64,000 nt of DNA from Mytilisepta virgata (lineage: Eukaryota > Mollusca > Bivalvia > Mytilida > Mytilidae). The notes beneath the pieces are model-generated. The model did not search any database. It saw only the letters and a list, made by a program, of their open reading frames with translations, and had not been told where the DNA came from. The translations under genes were made by a program, and so were the position numbers. Of the stretch, positions 1-64,000 are shown in pieces. Position 1 is the stretch's first letter, and every line of letters starts with the position of its first letter. The stretch is from NCBI GenBank assembly GCA_028015205.1, contig CM051510.1, forward strand, positions 33,480,580 to 33,544,579, written 5' to 3'.

Positions 1-1463
1 TGATATGATTACTGGTTAATTTTTTGTCCGCTATGGAGATTCCGTATATCGCCAAGTTATCGGAATTCTAATGGGGACTAACTGCGCATATCTTTTTGCA
101 GACCTTTTTCTGTATTATATCTAAAATCAGCAAAGACCCAACGAAACAACAGTTGATACAAAAATTTAATAACACTTTTAGATATTTGGATGATATTTTG
201 GCTGTATGTACACTAAAGACATTTATCCTGTTGAACTTACTTTAAATAAAGCTAATACTAACAACGAACAATGCCCTTTCCTGGATCTTGATATCTATAT
301 ATCTAACGGGAAGCTTAATACTAAAATTTACGATAAGAGAGATGATTTTTCATTTCCTGTTGTTAATTATCCGTATTTAGTTGGTGACGTTCGCCTGGCA
401 CCATTGTATGGTGTTTATATATCTCAACTTGTTCGATTCGTTCGTGTATGTAACAACGTATTTGATTTTAACGAAAGAAATCTCTGTATTACTGAAAAAT
501 TATTACACCAGGGATTTCGATATCACAAACTTGTCAAAACTTTTACTACATTTTATCATGGGTACAAGGACCCCATTCGTAAATATAAATCAACGTGCAA
601 ACATCTTATACTAGTATATTCAGGTATTTCACATCCCATCTTTTATGATAATATTCTATACAAAGCACAGAAATGTCGTCGTTCACCTGAAATGCTAATC
701 AAACCTTTAAACAGACTTATCAACAAGGGATATAGTTAAGATAGTGTTGCCAAGTCATTAAAGAATTGTTTGGAATTAATATTGATCCACTCGTAGGGTC
801 TTTTCATCGGAAATAAACACATTTATTCTAAAACCAGTTGATGGCACGATACGGGTTATGTTCTTCTCGCATAATTTATGATGGCATGATACTAAACCCC
901 TAACGGGAGGGATTGTGGCTGATTTTCTATATGGTATAGACATAATCTTTCGAACAGTTTAATTGAGGTCTGGATCTGGCATGTCAGTTACTGCTAGTAG
1001 TCCTTTGTTAATATATATATTAATCATTTTCATTTTGCTTATTTTCTTCTGCTACCTTTTTAACATCGGACTCGGACATCTTTTGAACTGAGTTTTGCTG
1101 TGTGTATCGCTGTGTGTTTGTTTATTCCACATTGGCTAGAGGTATAGGGGGAGGGTTGAGATCTCATAAAACCTATTTAACGCCGCCGCATTTTTGCGCC
1201 TGTCCCAAGTCAGGAACCTCTAGCCTTTGTTAGTCTCGTATGTTTTTTTAATTTTGGTTCATTTTTATGTTTCGGAGTTTAGTGTGCCATCCATTTTGCT
1301 GAACTAGTATACATTATTGTTGAGGGACCAGCTGAAGCCCGCCTCCGGGTGCGGGATTTTCTCGCTGCGTTGAAGACCCATTGGTAGCCGTGAACTGTTT
1401 TCTGCTCTTTGGTTGGGTTGTTGTCTCTTTGACTCATTCCCCCTTTCCATTCTCTATTCTATA
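1..1463 (+). mobile_element. 3' part of a broken retroelement (RT fragment plus non-coding tail)
   Basis: Positions 2-739 encode reverse transcriptase pieces. 740-1463 is a non-coding tail that includes a GC-richer block (about 1320-1400) and ends in CTCTTTGACTCATTCC then a CCATTCTCTATTCTAT-like terminus, a sequence I recognise as a very common terminus in Mytilus DNA. The element enters from the left edge, so its 5' part is outside the window. Its class is uncertain; the RT resembles a widespread invertebrate family (MGTNCAPLxADLFLY type), possibly Penelope-like. Confidence 0.75.
2..739 (+). pseudogene. Reverse transcriptase C-terminal fragment, frameshifted
   Basis: Three reading-frame segments in order. 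About 2-115 reads FVRYGDSVYRQV then MGTNCA...ADLFLY. About 120-200 reads NNTFRYLDDILA, with the catalytic YLDD box at 183-194. 206-739 reads through FLDLDIYIS, KIYDKRDDF, GVYISQLVRF and LLHQGFRYHKL. These are the conserved blocks of one RT family in the right order. Frame changes near 115-130 and near 200, plus a stop at the end of the first segment, mean no intact protein. 177 codons remain open at the 3' end. Related scraps lie at 54230-54430 and 62561-62665. Confidence 0.85.
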
Positions 1464-18644: not shown

Positions 18645-20163
18645 TACTCTCTCAAAAAAGAAACGCAACATACAGAAAATAGGAAATTTACTTCATATAT
18701 TATTTTCATAATTTATGATATAAATAATTTACACAGGAATGCAAAAATTGGCACACTTCTTGTTCATGAGTTCTTTTACCTTGGAATATCACAGTTTGTC
18801 ACATATTGTCAATAAATCACTCATAAATTGTCAATATCTGGTATGTCCACCATTTGCTTGTAACACAGCCCCGACTCTTCTTGGCATAGATTGAATTAAA
18901 CGCTGAGTTCGAACACGCGGTATCCTTTGCCACTCAAACTGAAGTGCCTGCTGTAATTGTTGCAGATTTTGCGGTGGTGGTTGTCGTTGGCGCACGCGCC
19001 GATCCACTTCATCCCACAAATGTTCAATTGGATTAAGATCGGGTGATCGTGGCGGCCAACGGATCACATTGACATTCTGTTGTTCTAAAAAGTCTACTGT
19101 TACACGTGCTGTATGTGGTCGGGCATTGTCGTGCTGAAAAATTTCTCTCCGAATGTCAATTACGGGCAATAAATGAGGTCGTAAAATTTCGTCTCTATAC
19201 CTAACAGCGTTCAGATTGCCTTGGATATGTATCAGCTGTGTGTTTCTGGCATAAGAAATAGCGGCCCACATCATAACACTGCCTCCGCCAAAATTGTCTC
19301 TCTCCACAACAGTTTTGCGCAAAACGTTCGTTTCGGCGCCTATACACACGTATGCGACCATCTCGCTTTTCCAGTTGAAAACGTGACTCATCGCTGAACC
19401 ACTCTTCTCCAGTTCTGTAAATTTCATGCACGAACTGTAGTACACCATCTAACCCTCGCTCGGCGGTGTTGGCGTCTCAGTGTTGCTCCAAAGTAAGGTC
19501 TTCTTGCCCTCAATCCATGAGAACGTAACCGATTGCGTACTGTCTGTGCTGATATACGGCGCAACCCAGGGACGTTTACAGCTGTTTCTGTTGCAGCAAT
19601 AGTCCTATTCCGCAGATGGAAAAGTCTGATGTAACGATCTTGCGCCCTGGTTGTAACACGCGGGCGCCCTGAACGTGGCCGATCTGTCGTAGTACCAAGC
19701 TGCAGGTAGCGTCCCCAAAGGCGTGAAATTGTGCTACGATGAACATTGTACGTTACAGCAACAGCATTCTGTGATTCTCCGGCCTCTAGTCGTCCGATAG
19801 CGATATTCCGGGTAGCATCGTCTAACCTTGGCATAGCGTCACCTCATCAGAATTTTATTTTACGAATGCATTCATGAAAAGAAATACCGGGTTTTTATAC
19901 CGACTGACTGAGCTAAAAAATAACCCATGATTTGCACGTGAAAGTCGACCCAGTTTTTGGCAATGCGTAAATCGTAGGGTGTCCCAGATTGCGACCAAAG
20001 TCGTTTACGGGTGGATGAATTTAAATGATTGTACCTGGAAACTTTTTATGAAGGTGTAATTATGATCATGTGTACATATATTTTGATATTTATTGGTTAT
20101 TTTTCCGGAAAAATAATATTTCAAAAAGATAATCTGATGTTGCGTTTCTTTTTTGAGAGAGTA
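18645..20163 (-). mobile_element. Tc1/mariner-type DNA transposon (1519 bp)
   Basis: Terminal inverted repeats of 27 bp are identical at both ends (18645-18671 and 20137-20163, starting TACTCTCTCAAAAAAG). They are flanked by TA on each side (18643-18644 and 20164-20165), the target duplication expected for Tc1/mariner. The interior encodes a frameshifted transposase on the minus strand. A run of 48 T lies 88 bp past the right end. Confidence 0.95.
18831..19834 (-). pseudogene. Tc1-like DD34E transposase, two frameshifts
   Basis: Cut-and-paste transposase. 19424-19834 encodes the N-terminal DNA-binding part: two helix-turn-helix units around a GRPR-type linker (RSGRPR). A frame change near 19430 leads into a second segment with the first catalytic Asp (WFSDESRF). 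Another near 19320 leads into the C-terminal segment with FGGGSVMMW, the second Asp in HDNARPH, and the Glu in SPDLNPIEHLWDE. 34 residues separate the last two acidic residues, giving the DD34E signature. All catalytic residues survive but are spread over three frames, so the gene is inactive as read. Full length would be about 330 residues, normal for the family. Confidence 0.93.
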
Positions 20164-28032: not shown

Positions 28033-28346
28033 CTAGATTTGTGTTAAATCACCCGGATGTAGTCCCATGGCATGCAGATATTGGTGATGTGAGTCCATTG
28101 GTGAAGTAACAGTGTCCATAAGCCTCGTTTTCGTGTTTGGAAGTTTGTGTTCTTTTTTCCATTTCATTCTTCTGTTTTGGAACCAGATTTTTATTTGTCT
28201 TTCTGACAGGCACAGTGTATGTGCAATTTCGATCCGCCGTCTTCTTGTGAGGTATCTGTTAAAATGAAACTCCTTTTCTAATTCAAGCACCTGATGTCGA
28301 GTATATGCAGTTCGGTTACGCTTTGAGTCCGAAATTATGTTGTCTC
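28033..28346 (-). CDS. Hox4: Hox4 exon 2 (homeodomain and C-terminus)
   Basis: Begins at the acceptor TTTTTCAG|GAGAC. It encodes a short linker (DNIISD), the 60-residue homeodomain and a 37-residue tail. Helix 1 carries LELEKEF, helix 2 the [10 protein letters not shown] segment, and helix 3 [13 protein letters not shown]. The tail runs KLPNTK, then a Met/His-rich end ([11 protein letters not shown]). [12 protein letters not shown] and TLCLSERQ separate it from Antp/Hox6-8 types (TALCLTERQ), and KLPNTK marks Hox4. The complete homeodomain is contained in this one exon, as in most Hox genes. Confidence 0.96.
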
Positions 28347-31300
28347 CTGAAAAACAAAATAACGAACTTGTATTCTATTTCACACCTTTTCAAGATTTCA
28401 GGTACTCTAAACTTAAAATATATCCAGGTATCGTGGTGTAAATTAAAATAATTTTCAAAACAAATTTTAAAAGGTATGCCTTTGAAAGCAGCATGGCCTT
28501 GATCCCTGAATCTTTGCTCGGAAATATATATGACTGTGACTGGAAATATTTTACACTAATTAAACCATGGCAACTATTTTAGTTTTTTTTAATTTTATTT
28601 TTTTAAGGTATGTTCTGTCCTCTTCTGAGACAAGACATACCTTTTCAAACCTATCGTCAAGACGTTATTTGCAATCTGAGAAACGGGCTGGGCAGTTAAG
28701 CTGCTTCTATATCAGTGGTACGGCGAACGGTTTTGAAAACGCACTTGGCAACCATGTTTGTTGAGCTCTTTATACGACTGGTACCCATTACGAGAACGGT
28801 TTTGAAAAATGATTAAAAGGATTAAATATTTTTTAAGCATTAGTGATATTAAATACACATCACCATGGCAAAGGAGTGCATACGGCTGCTTTTGCAATCA
28901 TTTTTGTATCCAATGTACTTTTTCCCTTGATGTATACAATTTATTATGTGTACGACAAACGCCATTTGTCAATATTAACAGTAAGTCATGTTGATCAAAA
29001 CAAAAACCGAAAGGTTTGATATTTTGCAGAAACGCCAACGATACTATCTGCACGCAAATAACCCATTTATTTTTCTATTTCTGTAAATGCTGCCCAGTAA
29101 AGCCATAGGGAGATGGATTAATTTATTTGATATCTATAATTAAAATGAAAACAATTTTAGTTTAGTGCAGGAAAAATCGTCTTACTAGACTATTCCGTTG
29201 TGGAATAAAGATTGTCTGATAACCATAGAAAAAAAACACAGACATTGTTATATGATATTTAGTCCTGTTCATCAGATCCAAAATAACACACTACCCTATA
29301 TATATATTATCAGAATGTAATTGGTACGCATTTTTTCAAGGTGTGATTCATGAACATTATTTTATTGAACAATAAATGAATAAACCAATTACTTTGTTAG
29401 ACGAACACTTTTATTTTTATAGTTAATCTAAGTTCGAAGGATTCTGAAATATTATATTCTATTTTTAATCATGGATTGAAATCATTTTCCCTTCTAAAAC
29501 AGCTGACGACATTTAATTATAGATTAACACGGAGCGATATCATCACGATACACCCACATTGTAGCGAGAACGTGCCCAACGGGTCGAAGGACGAAAGCAG
29601 GTCCGATATAGATTAGGTCAAGTCATTTAATAATCTGTTTAACATATAATGTCTATGTACGCATGTCCGAGTGCACCCTTTCTGAAATGACCATATCAGC
29701 CCGACCACGTTACGCACCCGGTCTAGCCCGGCTACGTTCGAATACCACTGGAAAAATGGTTTGTTAGCTTGTATTGGGTGTACACGTATTGGTTACCCTA
29801 TTTCGGTCGTTACACATATAAGACATAATAACACAAGAGTATTTATTTACTCTTGTGTAAAAAAGCAAACACCTATTTCTATAGATTTTATTATATCCAT
29901 CATACGAGTGGCTTCAATTTGACCTCCTTATTGATCAGTATCTTGCTTCTTGACAGAAGGAGCAACCAAAACAAAATTGTTGATTTTAACACACAATTTT
30001 TCAAGATGTGAAGGAAAGGAATGTTTTCTATTAATCAATGTTTTTAGATAAATGTATTTATTTTCAGTTGATATATGAATTTATTCTAAAATCATGAATT
30101 ATTTGGATTTGCTCTGTATATATTCTTTTAAATATATTGCAAAATTTACATAAAATTATATCGTAAGCGTTGCGGAGTCTACGAACAAGTCATATTGTAA
30201 AAGGTTAATTAATTAATGCATATTGATATATTTTAAAGGCCATTTTAAACGTTTTACGCAGGCATTTTAATCCAAAATATAAATTATCAAGAACAAATGG
30301 CATATTTAAATAAACATTATCAGATGCCCCGAATAAAAATTTTGGCAGCCTATCTTTCGGCGATGGTTGATAGTCAAAAACTTTGGATTACTATTGACAA
30401 GAAGCACAAATAGTCCTATGTACTTAAAGAAAAAAGTTGATTAGCTTGCCCTTTTTTTTGGACATTTTGGCATTTAACTATGCCCTCGGCCAACGTTTTC
30501 AATTACTGTTTCGGCTTTCGTCATCTTGCATATGAAATTTTCTTTATAATTATTTTTAACTCCATTAGTATGAACAGACGTAATCAATGATGTCCCAGTT
30601 CGATAGACTCGCTGAACTGTTTAGCTTACAAGCTTCAAGACAAAACATATTCACCGGTTTAAAAATAGCATGAAAACCATTTGAATCAACTATTTGTTCT
30701 TCACACTTTATTTACCCCCAACTTTCCTATTAGCGTCAAAACCCATTATAAGGTTTTATACGAGAATTACATTAGCGGAAGGATAAACTGATGCGACACA
30801 ATCGACCGTAATAGGGGAAATTATAAAATCAATACGCGTCACGAAGACTCGACACATCGTTAGATCTTGCTTCAAAATAGACAAAAAATTTCAACTTCTA
30901 CGTTGACGACGAAGATTTTGTCCTGATATGAAATATTTATTTACTCTTGTGTAAAAAAGCAAATGCTTCGATTCGTCATACTGCAATTCCTGAGAATACA
31001 TTTTTGATTTTATTTATACCTTTCAGATCATTCCCGAAATTTATTTGTAAAATACATACATTGGAGCAGCTATTTTTTATTTTTTTTATAAGGCCTAAAT
31101 ATTTCTATACTATGATAGAAAATTAAAACCGATTATTTTAAAGTTTTCTACATACATTTTTTTATATTTTTCTACGGATGTAAAACAGATCGAGACGAAA
31201 AAAGTGAAAACGAAAAGAAAAAATCTTTGATTTTATTCAAGAAAAGGAAAAAGCTTTGAAGAAATGTATTCAGGCTGTACAATAATGCCAACAAAAAATG

Positions 31301-33869
31301 TGTTTTAACAAATTAAAACATTTAAAAAGATTTCAATGTCAAAATCCAGCTGTTTGGTAGACGTTGTAAAAAATGGTGTTTTGAAAAATGAGAAGACTCA
31401 TTAAAAAGCCATTATTTCAGATGAAACGGCAGATATTATAGTACACTGCCATTACTGATAAAACAAATAAAAGAAGAGGGGTTTTATTTACATTTTGTTG
31501 TATTTCCATTCATTTTGTGTAGTGTTCATCCCCATATTTCTATCATTTCGTTACAAAGAAAGCTTATAAAGTCTTATTAAAATTTTATCAAAGTTAACAT
31601 ACATATAGTAAATTTTGTCTATTTTTAGCTTTTTTGAAAAGATAAAGATATATGCTTTATATTTTCATATTGTAGTTTTTTCCCTTTATCATTAATATTC
31701 ATGAGTTCGATTTATACTGAGATATTGGTTAATTATTTGAAACGCAGTAAATTTACTAAAACAAGATTGATACCCATAATTGTTTGACGAGAATTTTGTG
31801 CAGAACGTTAAAAAAAAGCTTGCAGATCTGGAATAAACTATTTTTAAATTGGTCCCTTATTCAAAACGTTTTATGGATAATTTGAACTAACCTTTTTCAC
31901 ATTGAAATCTTACAAAAACAACTTTTGCTGAAGTTATAAATTGTTATAACTATAGAGAAGTAACTGGACATTTTTTTTCAGTTTTCTTACATATTTCCCC
32001 ACCTGTCATTCAGTTTGACAAAAATTGCAAATACTAGTTTATGTGGGCAGAATTGTAATCTAATCGTGTGGGTTTAAATTTGAAATTTCATGTATAATTA
32101 ATGAGAAAATGAAACTTGTTTGTAAAACTATAGCAATTACATATTCCATAGACCGAATATGTCGGCAAGTACTGGGAAATAATTTTATCAATATATAGTG
32201 TGTCCTAATTCAATAATTTTCTCAATATATAGTGTGCCCTAATTCAATAATTTTCTCAATATATAGTGTGCTTCTCTTAAAATTGATAAATGTAATCTAA
32301 AACAAACGAAATGGTAAAAAAAAACAAAATATTACAGAAAATAATTTTTTTGACAATAATTCATCAACTTGGTTTCACTAGTATTTTCACAACATGGTTT
32401 CACTAGTATTTTCACAGATGCAGATTACATTACAGATACTCCATTCTCTGAATTTTTAAACTATTTTATGTCAAGAATATAACTAATTCATTTTTATATG
32501 GTGGGGGGGGGGGGGCTGCTTTCGGCGGGTTGAAAGAAAAGTCAGAAAATCTGGCTAAACAATTTCGTAAAAAAACCTGGACTGAAAGATTAAATTGAAA
32601 TTTTAATGGAATTAAATAGTAGTGGGTTTCGGTGAAATAATTTCTACCCACAAGTATGTTTAAAACATATCCAGCTGTAGTATTGTGAGAATATTTTCAA
32701 GATTCAAGTTCACCCTCCCCCCTTTTTAAGGGTAAATTGTTGGTCCCTGACTAGAAATTATAAATCTGTTACATTTATTATTGGTTAATATCCTCTATAT
32801 ATGAATATTACTAAACAGATATGAACATTTTCGAAGTTTATATTTTTTTAATGTATCTTGAAATAAATTTTACGTTTTAGGTCCATACATAATTATGTAT
32901 TTCTCTGTTGTTTGTGTTTGTTTATTGTGTCTGTAGGGTACTTGTAGGTGTAATGACAACACTGAGCCAGGGGACACACTTAACTAGAACGTAAATAAAA
33001 CAGGGGGTCTTTTGTATGTGTATTCGCTGACATGAAATGACCTCTGAAATTGTTTATACAGGCAGAACATCGTAATAGTTTAACAAAAAAATATAAACCA
33101 ACGTCATTACGCTATGACCACAGAAAATAGATAACGGCGACCATTTCATTTGAAGGGCAAGGACATGATTTCTTATAAGCATTTTTTTCATCACAATATT
33201 AAAGCCTGACCTTTTCATCACATTCTGAGTTTGATATTTTTTCACCATATATTTAGGCTGAAATTTTACACCAGATATGGGATCACATTTAACATTTCTT
33301 CCTTTGCCCCCATAAAAGTCGTTGTTCTCCAAATGCTCAATGGGAACTGAACGTTAAACAATTAAAACAAACCACAGACAACTTACAACCTCTTACACTG
33401 GATTCTATATTAAATGTTATAACCTGAGCCTGCTTTTGAAAAACTTATAAAAACAAAGTTCAAGAATAAGCCAAGGGACCTAACTCTACCCTCCATTTGA
33501 TATATAAAAGAAAACACAAAGAAAAAATAATAGAAAAACAGAAAAAGGCAAAAAAATCTATGAAGTTGTCACTTCCTTCACAAATGTGTTGCTTGATGGA
33601 GTTCTCGCGTCTTTATCAGACGGTCTTTAGGAGAGATATTCAATTAAAAAGCTTTTCATACAAGAACACAAAAGAGGATTACAATGGATTGTGTTTCATT
33701 TTTACGACACTGTTTCTTCATTATTTTAACAAAGCAAATCGCATTTTTTCATCAAATAGTAGAATCACTCTTCAAATGGCTTCTGATGCGGTTAACCGAT
33801 TTTTACGCAACGATGTTACAAACTTCCGGTTGATGATAACAGCAATAAATTATATCCCATGGTCAAAAA

Positions 33870-33904
<35 letters not shown>

Positions 33905-36900
33905 CAGTGCAAGACAAACCGTTATGTGATGATGCTACTATTCGGCCATTGGAGATGTTTTGTCGTCGAAAATATATTTCCGAAATATTATGTGGATCAT
34001 GATTTTTTTTTTCTTATTCTATTAAAGGTTCAGATTCTGATTCAGACTGGAATTGTGGATTTTTGTAAAAGAATACTCAATTTGCAAATTAAAAAAAAAA
34101 CAATATAAATACATTTGATGATATGAAATTTGTATAACTTAAAAAAAAATATTGAAGAATATGTTTAATTACAAAGAATGTTTTTAAGTCTGCAATCAGC
34201 CTTAACCACAATTTTTGAATGACACAGACTAAATACAATTATTTTTTTAAGACTTTTGAAACCGATATTTTGAACTAAGAAATAATAGTTTCAAAAATTC
34301 ACATTTTTAGCGGGGGTCAATTTTTAGAATGTTTAAACTTTACAATTTTCTATCTGAACTCTCGTTTTGTTTATATTTCTGGAACTGTGTGAACTATTTG
34401 AAATTATTATTCGCGACATTTATAAGTTAATTGAACAGGCTCCTGGGAAGATTTATTTTGACCTTTTGCAAAAATGTAAATGCCCTTATCCATGAAGTAT
34501 GGGTAAATACACCTAAAAGGCTAAGCTAATTTTCGGTTTAATTTTCATTTTTACTTTCAAAATATCAATCAGTTGACTAACGTATGTAAAATTCTCGTGC
34601 TTCGGTTGAATTTTAGTGAACACTCTATATTGCAATTTACTATTCTTTCGTTTTTGTAAAAAAAAAAAATGATTAAAAATGAAAGAATATGAGTTATGCC
34701 AAACGGCAAGAAGATATTGTAAATTTAAATATATGTTTTTGTTACTCTGTTACTTCTTGCCCCTTAAAGGGCCCGATAATTGGTAAAATAAACATTATCT
34801 ATATTAAAAAATTATGATATGAAAATATAAAAGTTTTAATAAGTATTAAAACATATTTTATACATAGTTAAATTATTGTATCTGGAATATCTACTTGTAA
34901 TATAATTTATATTAATGATATATGATACTCATGTCAAACTATTTTAAGAAATACAAAAGCAGAGATACGAGACCGACATCCCCAATTTTGAAATTGTCCC
35001 CGTAAAAATTTTAAACATAAAAGGATGTACAGAAAATTACGGTCATAAAGAAAAATATAGTATTGAAAGCAGACAATCCTATGACAACAGAAATAGGATA
35101 AAATGACACAAATGAAAAAAATGCCAGCGAATGACATTATTTATTACTTTTAAGAAACATTTATTTTATTTGTTTGACACACTGATCTGGGTTGTTGGCG
35201 GAAGAAGAAAAAATACATACGGATCGAATAACTGTACTATTAGTGGACCGATACCGGACACGGTTTAGGGCTTAATTAAAACAGACAAGATCTAAATATG
35301 TAGAATATGTCGGAGAAGGATCGGCGTACAAAATGTCTGATTAGTATAGTGTATTCATTTTGTTTTCTTTTTATAATTAGATATAAATATTTTTGTGTAA
35401 AAACCTAGTTTGTAAAAATATCAAACTGCTTTGGTTGAATAACGATTGCAACTGTCTCCGTTTGTTATTAAACAGATAATTTAATCATATAAATTATTCA
35501 ATAATAAAAATCTATGTTTAGCTCAGTATTTCATTAATTTTTGTATATTTTTTTTTACATGAAATCGATTTCTTTTATTTCATTGTGTTATCTATATTTA
35601 CATTATGTATAAAAAATATAAATATATTAATTTTATGAAGCTATTACAAAAAACAAGACACAAGACCGAATGTATTTGTTCTTTTTAAAGTACTTTTTTA
35701 TTACGGTGTACTAAATTACGGAATGTTGTACAGACCGTGCAGGTTGAAAGCGATTGCTGATGAATACCATTCAAAAGTGATTAAATCATTGACAACGTTT
35801 TTTCTCAATGGGTTTTCTTAAAGAGGAGCCATCCATCAAACGAAAATACTCGATTCATTTACATAACTTATGGTGTGTGAAAAACTATCGCGTTACAAAG
35901 AATTCGAAAACCTTATCGTGTATTTACACATCTTATTGTAATGTATTCAATGCAATATGCAATAAAGATTTAAATATGAATGTTTTCGAACGGACACTCT
36001 GGAATGGCAGTATTAAAACGATATTCCGTTGCTACTTATGGTAAACATCGACAATAAAACATTTATATCTGAGTAAATAATTGACACATTTATAAGGTTT
36101 TGTTACTTGTATGTTTTAATATGCATTTGGGGAATTTCAATACGTTTCTATATTGATAATCGATTAGCTCTTGTTATAAATATATAAATTTATGTCTTAT
36201 TTATCAATTTTTTTATCTATCAATTTTTTACTTCATTAAAGAACATTTCTATTCGTTAAAACTATTAACTGATTAGGGAACATTTATTTTCTACAAATTT
36301 CATTTATTAGTAAATTTTGGTAGATTTCTTACCATCTTCAGAAAAATTGTTAAAATAGAAGAAAAATTCTAAAACCGAAAAGAAAACAAAGAAATGCAAA
36401 ATATCCTGTTTATGGAAGTGAAATATACATTATCATACATAAATAAATACAATACTCAGTTCAAAATGTGTATTCCATTCATATTTCTTCAGGGTATACA
36501 CAATTTCTGTCCTTAATTGATATTTATAATTCAGAAGCGCTAAAGATAGCACTATATATATTTATTAACAAGAGATAAATTGGTCATTTAACAAATTTAT
36601 TACCCTATAAAGAATACAATGTGATTATTGCTTGTAAATTGAGAAGTGATATCTGAGTGTTGTAATTAATCTCAACGGGTAATTTGTAACCTTATTACCC
36701 CGTTTACTAAATGAATTATCAACTCTACACGTGACTGATGGGAGAAAAAAAATTGGGTTATTTTATAGCACTTTTTAAATAAAATTAGCTAGTCAAAATT
36801 TGTAATTTTTGGACGTATATTTAGTACATTTCGCCTGCAGGATAATCCTTTATCACAAATTTTAGGAAAATTTTACATGTTATTATAAATTTTATATAGG

Positions 36901-37743
36901 ATTCGAAATACATATTTTATGTACATTGAGATTTACAAAAACGGTTTACATAATTTTTCATGTTTAAAAACACTTCAAAACATTAATCGTTATTTTATCT
37001 TACTTTTATACTCAATAACATTACCACCCTTTTACCGCAACAACAGTTAATATATAATACTTATATGTTGACGGATAGGCCGTTTTACCATTACGACATC
37101 AAACCTTCCATCTTTAACGTATTTTTGTGGTTTGTGATGAAAACATTTTTGTTTACATTCAGTTTTAATAATGCACAAACTGATGAAAACATAGTAACAC
37201 TATCTGTCTATTTAACCTTATCGTTATATGAGTTTCAAAATAAACATTTGATTTAAATCGAGTCAAATTACAGCAAAACTACATACCAGGGTTGTTTCCT
37301 TGGCTTTTTCTCATCCATGGATAAATGACTGGTTGTCCGTCCGAATTTGTCTGTGCACAAGCACTTTTCGGTGATGAATCCTCATCCGATGATGTTACAG
37401 AGGGTGGACTAGGAGACGATGACACTTGAGCTGTTTGGGTGTGCGGTGTGAACCCATTACTTAATGCTGTTGTAGTCCCCCGTCCGTATCCTTGTGACGG
37501 TGGTGATGCCCGTGCCACGGAAACAGTCTCTGGCGGGGTCGGGCAAGGCATATAATTGTTCGGTGTGTATTTCTCTTCATTGAAACGTCTGTGATCACCG
37601 TATCCGTAAGAAGTATGGAAACTTTGTCTATAGTAATCTGTGCCATTGTTTGGAATATAGTTTGACTGAGAATATTCGTCCGTCGGAGGAAATTTCGGCT
37701 CCGTATATGAATTAGGGTTCATCAAAAACGAACTCATGATCAT
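28033..37743 (-). CDS. Hox4: Hox4 (Deformed class) homeobox transcription factor, two exons
   Basis: Sequence-specific nuclear transcription factor of the anterior-central Hox group, which sets axial identity together with TALE cofactors (Pbx/Exd, Meis/Hth). The CDS joins 37287-37743 to 28033-28346 on the minus strand: 771 nt, 256 residues plus a TAG stop. Residues 1-30 resemble the vertebrate Hox4 N-terminus (MIMSSFLM, then PKFPP and EYSQ). Residues 100-135 are Ser/Pro-rich. The YPWM hexapeptide is at 141-144 and the homeodomain at 160-219, with W48, F49, Q50 and N51 present. It is followed by KLPNTK, a Hox4 group mark. The junction is canonical: donor G|GTATGT, acceptor TTTTTCAG|GA, phase 1, making a Gly codon. 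The start at 37743 is chosen because MIMSSF matches the family; an in-frame ATG at 37791 would add 16 residues unlike any Hox4. No frameshift or missing key residue is seen. Confidence 0.96.
29831..29869. repeat. Intronic palindrome sharing 29 bp with 30935-30963
   Basis: ACACAAGAGTA and TACTCTTGTGT pair around a short AT loop (29831-29858). From 29841 to 29869 the sequence is identical to 30935-30963. Probably the ends of a small, otherwise unrecognisable element inside the Hox4 intron. Confidence 0.7.
30935..30963. repeat. Second copy of the 29-bp intronic repeat
   Basis: An exact match to 29841-29869 in the same orientation, ending TGTGTAAAAAAGCAAA. The left palindrome half is missing here. 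Confidence 0.75.
32180..32272. repeat. 34-bp tandem repeat in Hox4 intron
   Basis: ATATATAGTGTG recurs at 32191, 32225 and 32259 with the spacer CCTAATTCAATAATTTTCTC. A 25-bp duplication (TTTCACTAGTATTTTCACA) follows at about 32372-32417. Confidence 0.9.
33867..33904. repeat. (TAAA)n microsatellite in Hox4 intron
   Basis: About nine units. It terminates the 127-codon plus frame 33497-33880, which I regard as chance. Confidence 0.95.
37287..37743 (-). CDS. Hox4: Hox4 exon 1, coding part (N-terminus and hexapeptide)
   Basis: 152 codons plus the first base of codon 153. It encodes the conserved N-terminal activation segment, a Tyr/Asn/Pro-rich middle, a Ser/Pro/Asp stretch ([18 protein letters not shown] at 108-125) and VIYPWMRK, the Pbx/Exd contact. 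The exon ends ..CCTG before GTATGT at 37281-37286. Reading on into the intron gives Met then a stop immediately, so the exon end is sharply defined. The alternative start at 37737 (MSSF) cannot be excluded but is less like the vertebrate M-x-MSS start. Confidence 0.95.
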
Positions 37744-45957: not shown

Positions 45958-46100
45958 CCCTTCAGATACGAGTGAGTTATGGAATTTCTCCACCCGAGAT
46001 AGTTAAATTTTCGATTTTCAACACGCGAGCCTTTAGCGAGCGTGTTAAAATCTAAAATTTAACTATTGAGGATGGAGAAATTCCATAACTCACGAGTAAA
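45958..46100. repeat. Long hairpin (inverted repeat) with about 55-bp arms
   Basis: The left arm begins GAGTGAGTTATGGAATTTCTCC and runs through GTTAAATTTTCGATTTTCAACACGC. The right arm mirrors it to GGAGAAATTCCATAACTCAC. The apex is GAGCCTTTAGCGAG, with CGCGAG/CTCGC-like pairing. Probably a foldback/MITE-type element. Confidence 0.85.
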
Positions 46101-48209
46101 TTGAAGGAGAATCTGCTTCTACTAAGATTTTCGACAAAAACCTCAAGAAAATGTCGTTGCTATGTACTTTGTTTACATAGACGTCATTTCGGGACTTCTC
46201 TAGTTTATCGTTCTAATAAATGTAGAAAAAAGGGCGGTAATTCCCACGTAGAAATTTAATCACCGGGAAGTTGTTAAAGATATTATATATTTTTATCCCA
46301 CCGAATAAACACATCAAGAATAGGTGAAAAAAAGTTTTACGTCATGCAAGGTGAATACACATGTAATATTTAAAAGCAACACCGCCAAACAGATTTATGG
46401 ACATTAGAAGCCTTGCGGAGGATTGTGTATACCCTATCCTCTACGAATAGGGAATTTCCAGAAGAGTTACTTTCGTGTGGTTTAAATGTTGTAAAACTTG
46501 ATGTGAATACATATATATTCGTTTGATGTCTTTCCAAAATTCTACGTCAATTAATTTTAATAATTGCTAAGTACAGTAATTACCTGTCTTCCGGGTATTT
46601 AGTACTTGTATAACCAAAAGGCGGGAAATTACACGTTTATTGCCGAGGGATTTGTTCTACTTATTTCGACAGCTATAACGAGTGTACTCTGTACATGTAC
46701 GTACAATGTATATTGTTCCAGTAACAATATTTTCATATTTGTCAGTTGTATTTTTGTTTAAGGTGTATTATTTTTCAAATAAGAATTTGAAATGACAAAT
46801 AAAAATAAATAAACAAATAAGAATGGAATAATTAATCCACCAATATATCATGTATGTAAAAAAACAATACATTGCTGATTTATTGCTCTCATTGGAAATA
46901 CGATCAATTAATCTCTAATTCCCATGGAAGATGTCGGTGTCGTATTAATAAACATTAAAAACTGTACATTTACAATTTTTAGAATTAAATTCGAAATACA
47001 CATGACTTTGTTTTACTTTGTTCAAATAAAAAGAATGGAAATTTTGAGGCATATGAAAACATTTAGATAAAGTAAAACATCCCTTAAGCTGCCATGATGA
47101 ATTTGCCTATTTATTTTTTTTTATAAAAAACCTTTGAAAGCAAATGCAAAAATTTCTTTTCATAAATAAATATTTGAAATGTTAACTTTTAAGTTAAAAC
47201 TCCAGGTATACAAATAATTGAAAATGCTGGTGGTAGGATGTCGTCCGGAAACATAAATCAAATAGTTTAATACCTAACTTTGGCATGAAGTAGGGGACCA
47301 TAAATTGTCCAAATTTGACAAGTCAATGATAGCAAGATGACCACCGTGGACATATTTTGAAATAAAATGTAAATTAAGATGAATTGTACCTACTTCCCTC
47401 ACTTAAACTTAGACAAGTTAGGTGTTATCAGAAACGTTGAAATGTCCAGTTTCAATTCAAAACAAAGAGTCCGTGAAACAATTACCTGTCAGTATTTTTT
47501 GTTGTATTCCATGACCCTTGGTCAGGTGAAAATATGACCGAGTCTGAATCCACATAAAAAACCCAGTACACTAGTTATGAATTTCAATAGTTAGATTGTA
47601 CAATTTTTTTAGTATGCGTAATTTCGATTTCGATCTTTCTTATTTTGTATTATTTGCTGCCATTATTGAACATTCCCTTGAAATAAATATCTTTTATTTA
47701 TGCAAAATTATAGTTATTATCAGAACACTTTTAACACGTCATATTCTAAACAAAGTTTTCACAAAAGTGGAAAGATAACAAATTCTTTGCAATAACATTT
47801 TTATCAAACCATTGTCTCAAAACTGCATATGCAAAGTTTTATGAGAAAAAAAAATTGCCTAATACCCTGCCTTTCTAAGTTTGCCCCGTTTGTATGTAAA
47901 AATCCAGCCTTCCTGTGACATTTTCTAATTTCGCCTGATGTTTTGTATCTATGTAAAATCTAGGTGTCCCATTTGGCCCCATGTTTGTATGCAAGACTCA
48001 TGCGCTATTTTTCTCAATATTTTCATGTTCTATGATCAGTATTTTTATGCATCTATCTAGTTTTTCTTCTGATTTATAGCAACACACCTCTCTACGGACC
48101 CGTTTGAATATATTGCTCACTATGATCTAACGAATTATTGTTAGTAAGAAGCGTACATTTTGAAGATTCATCCCAAAATGCAGTTTTATGAGCAAATGTT
48201 TCGGCTTTA
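46101..48209. other. Intergenic, no gene seen
   Basis: AT-rich with short (AAAT) runs near 46800. The 60-codon plus frame 47596-47778 is low in complexity. Confidence 0.5.
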
Positions 48210-52429: not shown

Positions 52430-52906
52430 AGCCCTGTTGGTCTAACAGAGTAATAAAAAATTGTAATTCGAAAAGTCCAGGGCTGAAGAATTAAAGTCCA
52501 GCGCTGTAGATTTAAAGTCCAGTGCTGTAAATTTAAACTTCGTTAAACATTGGACGCTATGGGAAAGTTTATTAAAAAATCTTCTTGTCTGAAACCACTG
52601 AGCCAATTGGGAACAGATTTGGCAGCAATGGTCCTTCAGAATTACGTCCGATGACCAGGACTGTTAACCAACATGGCTGCCACGGCCGAACTTAGTGTAA
52701 CATAGAACCCTATTGGAAAATTCATTTAAATCTCCATCGCTGGATTTTAAATCTACAGCACCGGACTTTAAATCTAGAGTGTTGGATTTTGAATCTACAG
52801 CACTGGATTATATCTACATCGAAATCTACAGCGCTTGACTTTAATTCTTCAGCGCTGGACTTTTCAAATTACAATTTATTATCCTCTCTGTGAGACCAAT
52901 AGGACT
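52430..52906. mobile_element. Non-autonomous element with about 85-bp TIRs built of 20-bp subrepeats (477 bp)
   Basis: The left end reads AGCCCTGTTGGTCTAACAGAG and the right end is the reverse complement of AGTCCTATTGGTCTCACAGAG. The arms contain repeats of the type AAAGTCCAGCGCTGTAGATT: three on the left and about five in reverse orientation on the right. The middle (about 52558-52700) resembles the CTGAAACCGCTGGGCCGATTGG block of the element at 58038. There is no target duplication that I can see and no coding capacity. Confidence 0.85.
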
Positions 52907-54229: not shown

Positions 54230-54430
54230 TTCTGTCATTTTCTGCTAAATATAGATGATTTTCTATATATTAATAGTCCAAACTTTTAGGGTTACATGAA
54301 AGTGAGTTGTCTATTTCAGTCTCATACCTAGATATATATCTGAAATTTATTACAAACGTGATGAATTCAATTTTCCTATTGTGAACTTTCTGTTTCAGAA
54401 GTGCTGTGTTTAATTTCATATCTTATTTGT
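54230..54430 (+). pseudogene. Reverse transcriptase scrap, heavily decayed
   Basis: Frame pieces read DDFLYINSPNF (around the catalytic DD), then HESELSISVSYLDIYL, then KRDEFNFPIVNFL, which are successive blocks of the same RT family as at 2-739. Stops and frame changes separate them. ILF/CYPL-like remnants of the next block may follow to about 54440. Confidence 0.65.
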
Positions 54431-61289: not shown

Positions 61290-62077
61290 TGAGCACCTTA
61301 AGAGGAACATTCAGACCAAGTTTGATTTCAAACAATTCTGCGGTTTTGTAATATGTCATAAACACTTTCTGTAAAGTTTGGCTCTATTTGGCCAAGCAGT
61401 TTAAGAGAAAACAATATCAACCAATCAGAAACAAGAATTGACCATGGCAGCCGTGTTTGTCGCCCTTTCTGGACAAAATGAGGAAAATTTGTAAAAAAAC
61501 TCAAACAGATACTTCCTGTCAACTCTCGTTCCACTTGGCCAAGCGGTTTCAAAGAAGAAGATTACCAACCGATGAAAGACAAGAACTGCAAATGACGGCC
61601 ATGTTTGTTGCCAGATCGGTACGAAATAGGAAACGTTGTAAAGAACCTCTCATAGATGCTTCCTGTCAAGTTTCTTTCCATTTGGACAAGGGATTTCAGT
61701 TTATAACATTTTTTTATATCTACCAATCAGAAACAAGAACTGCGCATGGCGGCCATAATTGTAGTCCGATCGGGACGAAATGAGGAAACCTTATAAAGCA
61801 CCTCCCATATATACTTCTGTCAAGTTTAGTTCCATTCGGCCCAGCGGTTTCAGGCGAGAAGATTTTTGAAAACTCAGCCAATCAGAAACAACAATTGCCC
61901 ATGGCGGCCATGTTTGTTGTCCGACCGGGATGAAATGACCTTACATAGATGCTTCCTGTCAAATTTATTTCCATTTGGTCCAATGGTTTCATAGGAGAAG
62001 ATTGAAATGTGAAAAGCTAACGGACGACGGGCGGACGACGGACGCCAAGCGATAACAAAAGCTCACATGGCCTTTGG
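61290..62077 (-). mobile_element. Element of the GCTCACCTGG family with about 150-bp tandem repeats, inverted relative to 58038
   Basis: Four units carry ATGGC(A/G)GCC(G/A)TGTTTGT-like cores at 61443, 61594, 61744 and 61901, with AATCAGAAACAAGAA before and CTTCCTGTCAA after. The right end, CTAACGGACGACGGGCGGAC and GACGGACGCCAAGC then AAAGCTCAC, is the reverse complement of the left end of the 58038 element (CTTGGCGTCCGTCGTCCG). The two elements are therefore related and in opposite orientation. The plus frame 61457-61783 is read from the tandem units and is not a gene. Confidence 0.75.
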
Positions 62078-62560
62078 AACAATGCTTTGATTGTCATGAT
62101 TGTTGTTCTTCATCTTGATGATTAATCAGTGAAAGGTCAAGTATGACTGAAAAACTCAGGAAAATCTTTTATGTTCAAAATGAATCAAGTCAGGTTTGTA
62201 TTAAATAATGGTCTTAAGCTTTTCTTGTAATACTCGTGATTTGTTATATCAACTCTCGGATTCAATTATTATTATTATTGTAAAACAGATTATTTTTTTT
62301 TTGGTCCTTGCTGCAACAGATTATTTTTTTTCCTTCCCTTTGGAATCAGAATATTTTTTTCACAAAAGAAAATATACCCCCACCCCTCCTTGAAGTTAAA
62401 TGGTTGTTCCCTAAGAGAAAATGATACTACAAATGTGTTGTGGTCCTTAACTTTCAGTTTAACTATTTAAATAATTTTCTACCTGCATCCTTTTTCCCCC
62501 AGTAAACTTGAAATTAGAAAAACCAACGACACATACTCCTTCTGTTTTCAACATAGTTAT
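62078..62560. other. Intergenic, T-rich repeats only
   Basis: Two tandem AACAGATTATTTTTTTTnCTT units (62286 and 62319). No gene. Confidence 0.5.
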
Positions 62561-62665
62561 ATGTATACACGACAACGGGCGATCGAATTCAAAACTTGTG
62601 ACAAAAAGGATGATTTTAAGGTCCTAGTTGTGAATTTCCCTTTTCTTAACAGTAACATACTGACA
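62561..62665 (+). pseudogene. Reverse transcriptase scrap
   Basis: Reads EFKTCDKKDDFKVLVVNFPFLNSNI, the KxxDKRDDF-xxPIVNFPF block of the RT family found at 2-739, with nothing recognisable on either side. A very short relic. Confidence 0.6.
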
Positions 62666-62722: not shown

Positions 62723-62726
<4 letters not shown>

Positions 62727-62763
<37 letters not shown>

Positions 62764-62768
62764 CCAAT

Positions 62769-62841
<73 letters not shown>

Positions 62842-62850
62842 GATCGATTC
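62727..62850. repeat. (AATC)n microsatellite
   Basis: About 30 units with ACC interruptions at intervals. It encodes Asn-Gln-Ser-Ile repeats in two frames, which explains the long plus frame here. AATC tails end a mussel retroposon family (see 2465-2873), so this may be an expanded tail. Confidence 0.95.
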
Positions 62851-63583
62851 TAATCAAGTGTATATTGTGAATTTTAAAATATGTAATTGTTCAGCTCATT
62901 ATTGGGTGTCGTAATTGACAATAAAGTATTTGTTGCTTTCGCGATGAGTACAAATAAACTTTACATTTTCTGACAATGTACGTATATTGTTTTTTATCCT
63001 GCAACACTAAATTGTTATCTGTTTGAGCGAAAAGGCATGAAAATGAAGCTTATTTGAAGAAGGATAGTTTTTGGCGCGTAATCTAGGGAAACACGACCTC
63101 ATAATCACTGTGAACCAGAACGCAATGCAAAATATCGTTGAATGGGAGGACAGGGGTACCAGGAGACTATATTGGGCTACTCACCCAATATCGAAAAACG
63201 ATATTGGACAGGCTATATTGGTCAGCTAAAAGCGTAGTTGCAGGATAATGAATATTATTACTGTTTCTGTTTTGATTCTAATTAAATAATTTGAAACTAA
63301 TGACAAAATCAAATGCTAGTATTAATTGAATAAATATAGAATAGCTATATATTGTTTTGGAAAATCGATCTTTTGTGTACAATGCTTAGAAACAGGTTGT
63401 CATAAAACAACCTTAAAAACATTAACTATAAAAACCACTGTCATGGTCTGTAACTAAGCTAGCTCATCAATTTGACCCGGGTGAGAATGGAAAGAAAGAT
63501 AAGCATTGCGAAGGACAAAAGATGTTTTTACATACCGGCTGTACGTACGAAAGATAAGTGGGTCGGGATGTAGTTCTTGTCTA
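62851..63583. other. Intergenic flank of mir-10
   Basis: AT-rich with one inverted ATTGG pair near 63168-63220 (TATATTGGGCTACTCACCCAATAT, itself a small palindrome) and a single small-element end (63258-63285). The mir-10 primary transcript would run through here on minus, but no signal defines its ends. Confidence 0.45.
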
Positions 63584-63660
63584 CCACTAGATATAACTCC
63601 GCAGATACGGATTTGTCATGTGACATATACAAATTCGGATCTACAGGGTAGATATAGTGG
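63584..63660 (-). ncRNA. mir-10: mir-10 microRNA precursor hairpin
   Basis: The minus strand folds as a hairpin. The terminal stem is CCACTA/TAGTGG, the 5' arm (63629-63650) is the miR-10 mature sequence beginning UACCCUGUAGAUCCG and ending AAUUUGU, and the loop is about 12 nt (AUAUGUCACAUG). The 3' arm (about 63592-63616) begins ACAAAUCCGUAUCUG and pairs back with few mismatches. The 22-nt mature sequence matches the bilaterian miR-10 consensus as I know it, including seed ACCCUGU. It lies on the same strand as Hox4, about 25.9 kb upstream, matching the conserved Hox4-mir-10-Hox5 order. A 111-codon plus-strand open frame across the hairpin (63506-63841) is taken as chance. Confidence 0.96.
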
Positions 63661-64000
63661 AGAATATCACACATGCGCAGGAAATGTCAAATTCATCTGT
63701 CAACCACATCCGCCATTTTGGTCAGCCATATATGTATGTTGCTGTAAAATACAAAATACGAAAATAATGCTTGTAAAAGATTCACCTACAAATAAAAATT
63801 TGTATTCTCGTCATTTAATGGCCTTCTTGAATCATAAGTAGCTTAGAGATGTTTCTAAATTCATTTTTGACAAAAGGTATGTAAGATTTCAAGCGTGTGA
63901 CTGAAAGGTCACATAAAGTGTCAAGCGTCAAGCAAACGTTTTATGATAAATGTACACATTATCATAGATTAGTGAGTTTACATTGAAATATTCTGTCATA
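63661..64000. other. Right-edge flank upstream of mir-10
   Basis: No reading frame or repeat recognised. TCAAGCGT is duplicated in tandem near 63920. Hox5 would be expected further right, outside the window. Confidence 0.4.

Follow-up and report, generated by a model that had tools for sequence, protein, structure and literature searches.

The microRNA gene mir-10 has been published as lying between Hox4 and Hox5 in vertebrates and in many invertebrates (PMC3394115). In a sea spider, MIR-10-P1 is placed between Dfd and Scr (PMC12220506). A supplementary figure legend on Lottia gigantea and Capitella teleta locates mir-10, mir-993 and mir-10-related genes within the Hox complexes of both animals and names no interval (PMC3290615). 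In a land slug, a miR-10-like locus follows the third gene in one of the clusters, a position that its authors regard as expected and compare with that in fly and vertebrates (PMC12506671). Another Hox-embedded member of the mir-10 family, mir-1991, is located elsewhere, between Post2 and Post1 in the oyster, a position that Lottia and Capitella are described as sharing (PMC4138081).

We analyzed a stretch of 64,000 nucleotides from the mussel Mytilisepta virgata (C3:33480580-33544579; hereafter the window, in which positions are counted from its first letter). At a probability of about 0.96, the hairpin located near its right end is the mir-10 gene of this mussel (MIR-10-P1 in the nomenclature of PMC12220506), with the same strand as Hox4 and Hox5 and a position between them that is ancestral for bilaterians. 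The mussel locus and arthropod mir-10 (RF00104; MIR-10-P1) have in common the guide family, the hairpin layout and a position flanked by the orthologues of Hox4 and Hox5; in the mussel, the spacing is 25.8 kb to Hox4 and 44.0 kb to Hox5. The letters of the mir-10 3′ arm differ from those of the mussel in both insects and vertebrates. Vertebrate mir-10a and mir-10b likewise lie between Hox4 and Hox5 (PMC3394115), whereas the mussel genome carries one exact copy of the guide. Like mir-10 of Lottia and Capitella according to the figure legend cited above, mussel mir-10 belongs to a Hox complex. The letters of snail miR-1991, as given in PMC7328434, differ from those of mussel mir-10.

The Hox4-mir-10-Hox5 arrangement is therefore already published for many animals, and the mussel member is well placed but expected; it overturns nothing. 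In the literature searched, this particular locus of the mussel may not have been described before. A preliminary description of this DNA had proposed that the window anchors a conserved segment of the cluster. Both Hox neighbours, their strand and their spacing were indeed found, and the locus can serve as a mollusc anchor for comparing Hox-embedded microRNAs, offering mir-10, the two Hox genes on either side, strand, spacing and a run of 11 homeoboxes.

A single exact copy of the miR-10 guide

A pattern search of the window located miR-10-5p (TACCCTGTAGATCCGAATTTGT) on the minus strand at 63629-63650, as the preliminary description had claimed, with 22 of 22 letters matching and no mismatch. 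The guide expected of MIR-10-P1 (UACCCUGUAGAUCCGAAUUUGU) is thus present over its whole length. From composition, an exact occurrence of this 22-mer is expected about 7e-9 times per window. No second site with three mismatches or fewer was found elsewhere in the window, none of 100 shuffles contained one, and a search with a degenerate core, allowing up to two mismatches, gave no additional mir-10-like site there either. The exact 22-mer occurs as a single copy in the whole genome (1.034 Gb, 109 contigs), and was found neither in a collection of bacterial and archaeal genomes nor in viral contigs (0 occurrences in each). In another bivalve, the blood clam Tegillarca granosa, the catalogue of small RNAs includes the exact 22-mer, and its table row carries the number 3280 (PMC3972184).

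The mir-10 hairpin

The guide forms part of the 5′ arm of a hairpin, and the 3′ arm is paired with it. We identify this hairpin as mir-10 because it combines the two, a guide without a single mismatch in one arm and an opposite arm that pairs with it. Sequence, fold, strand and the neighbours on either side of the locus are all directly established. According to the fold and its list of pairs, the extended pri-mir-10 hairpin spans 63580-63665 (minus strand) and is closed by a basal stem CCACUA/UAGUGG. Its folding energy is −27.8 kcal/mol, compared with −14.8 kcal/mol for the average shuffle (z −4.6; 2 of 1000 shuffles reach this value), in agreement with the initial claim that the guide folds with its 3′ arm. 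The core at 63589-63657 (minus strand) gives z −3.3, with 6 of 1000 shuffles as low. A hairpin also forms when the minus strand is folded over 63570-63675, the interval proposed for folding in the preliminary description (z −2.7; 3 of 200 shuffles as low). Fold energy alone is unexceptional: among 6392 segments of 86 nt (taken at 20-nt steps on both strands), 14 fold equally well or better, and the antisense strand of the hairpin is nearly as stable.

The 2-nt overhangs read from the folded pairs predict miR-10-3p at 63593-63614 (minus strand), with ends that are good to ±1 base. The expected cuts would release a 58-nt precursor, 63593-63650, and would leave an apical region of about 12-14 nt between the arms (63615-63628, minus strand, from the folded pairs), close to the loop of about 12 nt first noticed.

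Flies use the iab-4/iab-8 hairpin from both strands. A comparable use of the mussel hairpin, with a second microRNA produced from the plus strand, could be suspected from the fold of that strand (−27.0 kcal/mol, z −4.2) and from a weak match to the Rfam mir-10 model there (22.5 bits). However, good hairpins tend to fold on either strand, and the antisense of the mir-100 hairpin of the same genome reaches 48.5 bits; we consider plus-strand use improbable.

On the minus strand, the Rfam mir-10 model (RF00104) aligned over its full length (model positions 1-74 of 74) at 63588-63657, which we take from this alignment as the mir-10 precursor, with 43.9 bits and an E value of 1.7e-7 for the window. 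The score is 3.6 bits lower than the gathering score of 47.5, and because of this a default Rfam scan, run at the gathering score, listed no match in the window. In a relaxed Rfam search of the window, mir-10 was the top match. The gathering score of Rfam therefore misses this Hox-cluster mir-10. Departures from the Rfam consensus are found mostly in the loop and in the 3′ arm; the chief differences in the star arm are a U-to-C change in UUCG and the presence of UCUGCGG in place of UCUAuGGG. The preliminary description had remarked that the star arm is unlike the insect one. The diverged UCUGCGG is still paired, opposite CCUGUAGA. A 13-nt fragment of this arm had no exact match in the literature searched.

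The divergence of the 3′ arm and a score below the gathering value are features that would also be shown by a relic, in which the guide has stayed intact and processing of the hairpin has been lost. Primary microRNA transcripts that are processed efficiently carry a UG at the usual basal place and a CNNC motif 16-18 nt past the cut. When the mussel hairpin was read by eye, the UG was absent from this position, and the nearest CNNC is located 20 nt past the expected cut, two points that also speak for a relic. Nevertheless, a perfect 22-mer would hardly be expected without constraint, no other exact copy exists in the genome, and base pairing persists in the stem where the 3′ arm has diverged (GCGG and UCU opposite CCUG and AGA). 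Moreover, a mir-10 has been reported by name in hemocytes of Mytilus galloprovincialis, a record that need not apply to the present case (PMC7773633). A relic is therefore highly improbable, and a mir-10 gene remains our reading of the hairpin.

Hox4 and Hox5 flank mir-10 on the same strand

The downstream neighbour of mir-10 is Hox4 (Deformed), which is encoded on the minus strand by two exons. The coding part of exon 1 (37287-37743; splice model and homology) starts with MIMSSFLMN, ends with YPWMRKSQGNNP and has a split last codon. It is followed by an intron of 8940 nt (28347-37286, GT...AG; splice model) and by the coding part of exon 2 (28033-28346), which contains the homeodomain (PF00046, E 1e-23; also homology) and the stop. 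In the splice model, the coding sequence 37743-37287 joined to 28346-28033 gives a product of 256 aa. This protein shows 94% identity over 99% to HOX_4 of Mytilus coruscus, the best of 6236 relatives, a match that marks the animal as a mussel of Mytilus or of a genus near it. Besides the homeodomain, it displays a YPWM motif, a Hox4-type N terminus and orthology to a named Hox4, and a search of solved structures gave homeodomain relatives only. These two exons account for all 245 alignments (E ≤0.01) obtained with the 120 listed relatives of Hox4; the window is therefore devoid of any other homeobox visible to that search.

On their common strand, 25,845 nt separate the end of the mir-10 hairpin from the first Hox4 ATG downstream of it, so that the distance of about 26 kb estimated at first was accurate. 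No Pfam match (E 0.001) was obtained for the seven open frames of at least 100 aa lying across the hairpin (one frame) or between Hox4 and mir-10 (six frames), in a search that could miss genes made of short exons. The frame that crosses the hairpin is a plus-strand frame of 112 aa.

The window ends 343 nt beyond the hairpin. In the next 99 kb rightward, a single homeobox was found, again on the minus strand. The first exon of the corresponding gene starts with MSSYFVNSL and ends with YPWMRRMQYSQ, and the joined product of 273 aa matches HOX_5 of Mytilus edulis along 100% of the query, with 92% identity. With its homeodomain (E 1.7e-24), its YPWM motif and its orthology to a named Hox5, we assign this gene to Hox5 (Scr). 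Its stop, at the end of the homeobox exon (C3:33588196), is 43,960 nt (about 44.0 kb) from the mir-10 hairpin, and its first ATG is located at C3:33617264. The preliminary description had anticipated a Hox5 gene to the right, and it is present on the same contig and strand. Between the window end and this gene, none of the six frames of at least 100 aa in C3:33544500-33588196 had a Pfam match (E 0.001), a search to which short-exon genes could again be invisible, and no Rfam match at E ≤0.1 was found in the 59.4 kb starting at C3:33544500.

As Hox5 is found 44 kb rightward on the same strand, the order Hox4-mir-10-Hox5 is established, with mir-10 between the two Hox genes. The bilaterian order suggested in the preliminary description is thus confirmed, all three genes being on one strand.

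Other members of the mir-10 family in the genome

A search of the genome with RF00104 (E up to 10; 59 of 96481 first-look candidates scored) produced four rows at three places, one of them matched on both strands: the window mir-10, mir-100 and a further hairpin on the same contig. The same model gave weak matches in 5 of 14 control genomes, and none of the 14 had a match over the cut-off.

The mir-100 gene is located at C14:17297327-17297396 (plus strand) and scores 60.3 bits. Its guide is AACCCGUAGAUCCGAACUUGUG, which we take to be that of mir-100, as we do its place beside let-7. The let-7 hairpin lies downstream, with 216 nt between the hairpins and 285 nt between the mature starts; no start with the usual mir-125 letters was found in the 3-kb mir-100/let-7 locus. 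The identification of the window hairpin as mir-100 was rejected, mir-100 sitting elsewhere, at C14:17297327.

The further hairpin, C3:33911842-33911911 (minus strand; UACCCUGUAGAACCGAGCGAGUG; 41.9 bits), is located between two homeoboxes of the Lox2/Lox4 type. It may correspond to mir-10b, although this naming is a guess; PMC6160089 presents mir-10b as a paralogue that occurs in annelids and molluscs. The letters of the further hairpin are unlike those of snail miR-1991 reported in PMC7328434.

That the window hairpin is itself another family member, mir-993 or mir-10b, is scarcely credible: the seed is common to the family and two further copies exist in the genome, but the mature letters of these copies differ (AACCCGUAGAUCCGAACUUGUG; UACCCUGUAGAACCGAGCGAGUG), whereas the window copy is a letter-perfect miR-10 at the mir-10 place. 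The guide of mir-993 is carried by the 3′ arm and its gene lies between Hox3 and Hox4; this candidate was rejected for the window hairpin, which is located between Hox4 and Hox5. The letters of fly mir-993 3p had no match in the window at three mismatches or fewer. No mir-993 was evident among the 59 of 96481 candidates scored with RF00104 in the genome, mir-993 being perhaps too far from this model.

The Hox cluster around the window

Eleven of the 71 homeobox matches of the genome lie consecutively at C3:33203431-34440480, a region of 1.24 Mb that includes the window. The final one is encoded on the plus strand, the ten before it on the minus strand. Judging from diagnostic residues, their order is presumably Hox1, Hox2, Hox3, Hox4, Hox5, Lox5, Antp, two genes of the Lox2/Lox4 type, Post2 and an inverted Post1; the names Hox4 and Hox5 come from searches, and those of the other homeoboxes from these residues. 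On this basis, the genes appear to follow the usual order of a mollusc Hox cluster. For Lottia and a Hong Kong oyster, PMC7566022 reports that Post1 is inverted.

Proposed working and putative target sites

By analogy with the family, transcription would come from the Hox5 side and proceed toward Hox4, and the primary transcript would form the hairpin. Drosha and Dicer would then cut it into the 22-nt guide miR-10-5p, which would be expected to repress messenger RNAs carrying ACAGGGTA-like 3′ sites. Vertebrate miR-10 targets are described as being preferentially Hox1-3 (PMC3394115). In insects, Scr is a predicted mir-10 target, and the Hox microRNAs tested in Drosophila are reported to be without major effect on their predicted Hox targets (PMC3290615).

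We counted the seed site CAGGGTA in 13,692 nt of genomic 3′ flank from ten Hox genes; Hox2 was left out, no stop having been found within its locus. Three candidate sites were present, in the flanks of three neighbouring genes only, Hox5, Lox5 and Antp. At Antp the site is a full 8-mer, 138 nt past the stop; at Lox5 it is a 7-mer, 29 nt past the stop. Such a count of three was reached by 7 of 420 permutations of the 7-mer, and a count of one by 129 of 1120 permutations of the 8-mer; the antisense control contained the 7-mer twice. The signal is therefore weak, and the idea of looking at these sites arose after the counts had been seen. No miR-10 seed site was found in the 3 kb downstream of Hox4, and sites for the predicted 3p arm, counted in the window only, gave nothing notable. 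From the seed sites one would predict that mussel miR-10 acts on Hox5, Lox5 and Antp, the three Hox genes that lie upstream of it and are more posterior, and not on Hox1-3, the targets reported in vertebrates; such a preference is doubtful.

Repeats and other elements in the window

Several repeated elements were observed in the window. A near-perfect inverted repeat is present at 45971-46094, with arms that match each other at 83% and with no other copy found in the window. The interval 45960-46105 folds at −77.6 kcal/mol. It looks like a foldback or MITE-type element; an Rfam match to MIR7504 at the same place is far below its cut-off. Remains of a Tc1-like transposase, in overlapping frames with HTH_Tnp_Tc3_2 and DDE_3 domains, are found at 18831-19843 (minus strand).

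An open frame of 181 aa at 194-739 (plus strand), without Pfam match, has weak echoes at 62498-62659 and 54339-54389. A stretch similar to this frame (33% of 55 aa, E 0.003) is located about 0.9 kb from mir-10. Two tandem arrays lie 0.7-2.2 kb from the mir-10 hairpin: a minisatellite at 61357-61938, in which a unit of about 147-154 nt is repeated nearly four times, and an array of 30 CAAT copies at 62725-62845. Finally, the short arrays at 52472-52537 and 52725-52809 are made of 21-nt units which, by eye, are near reverse complements of each other.
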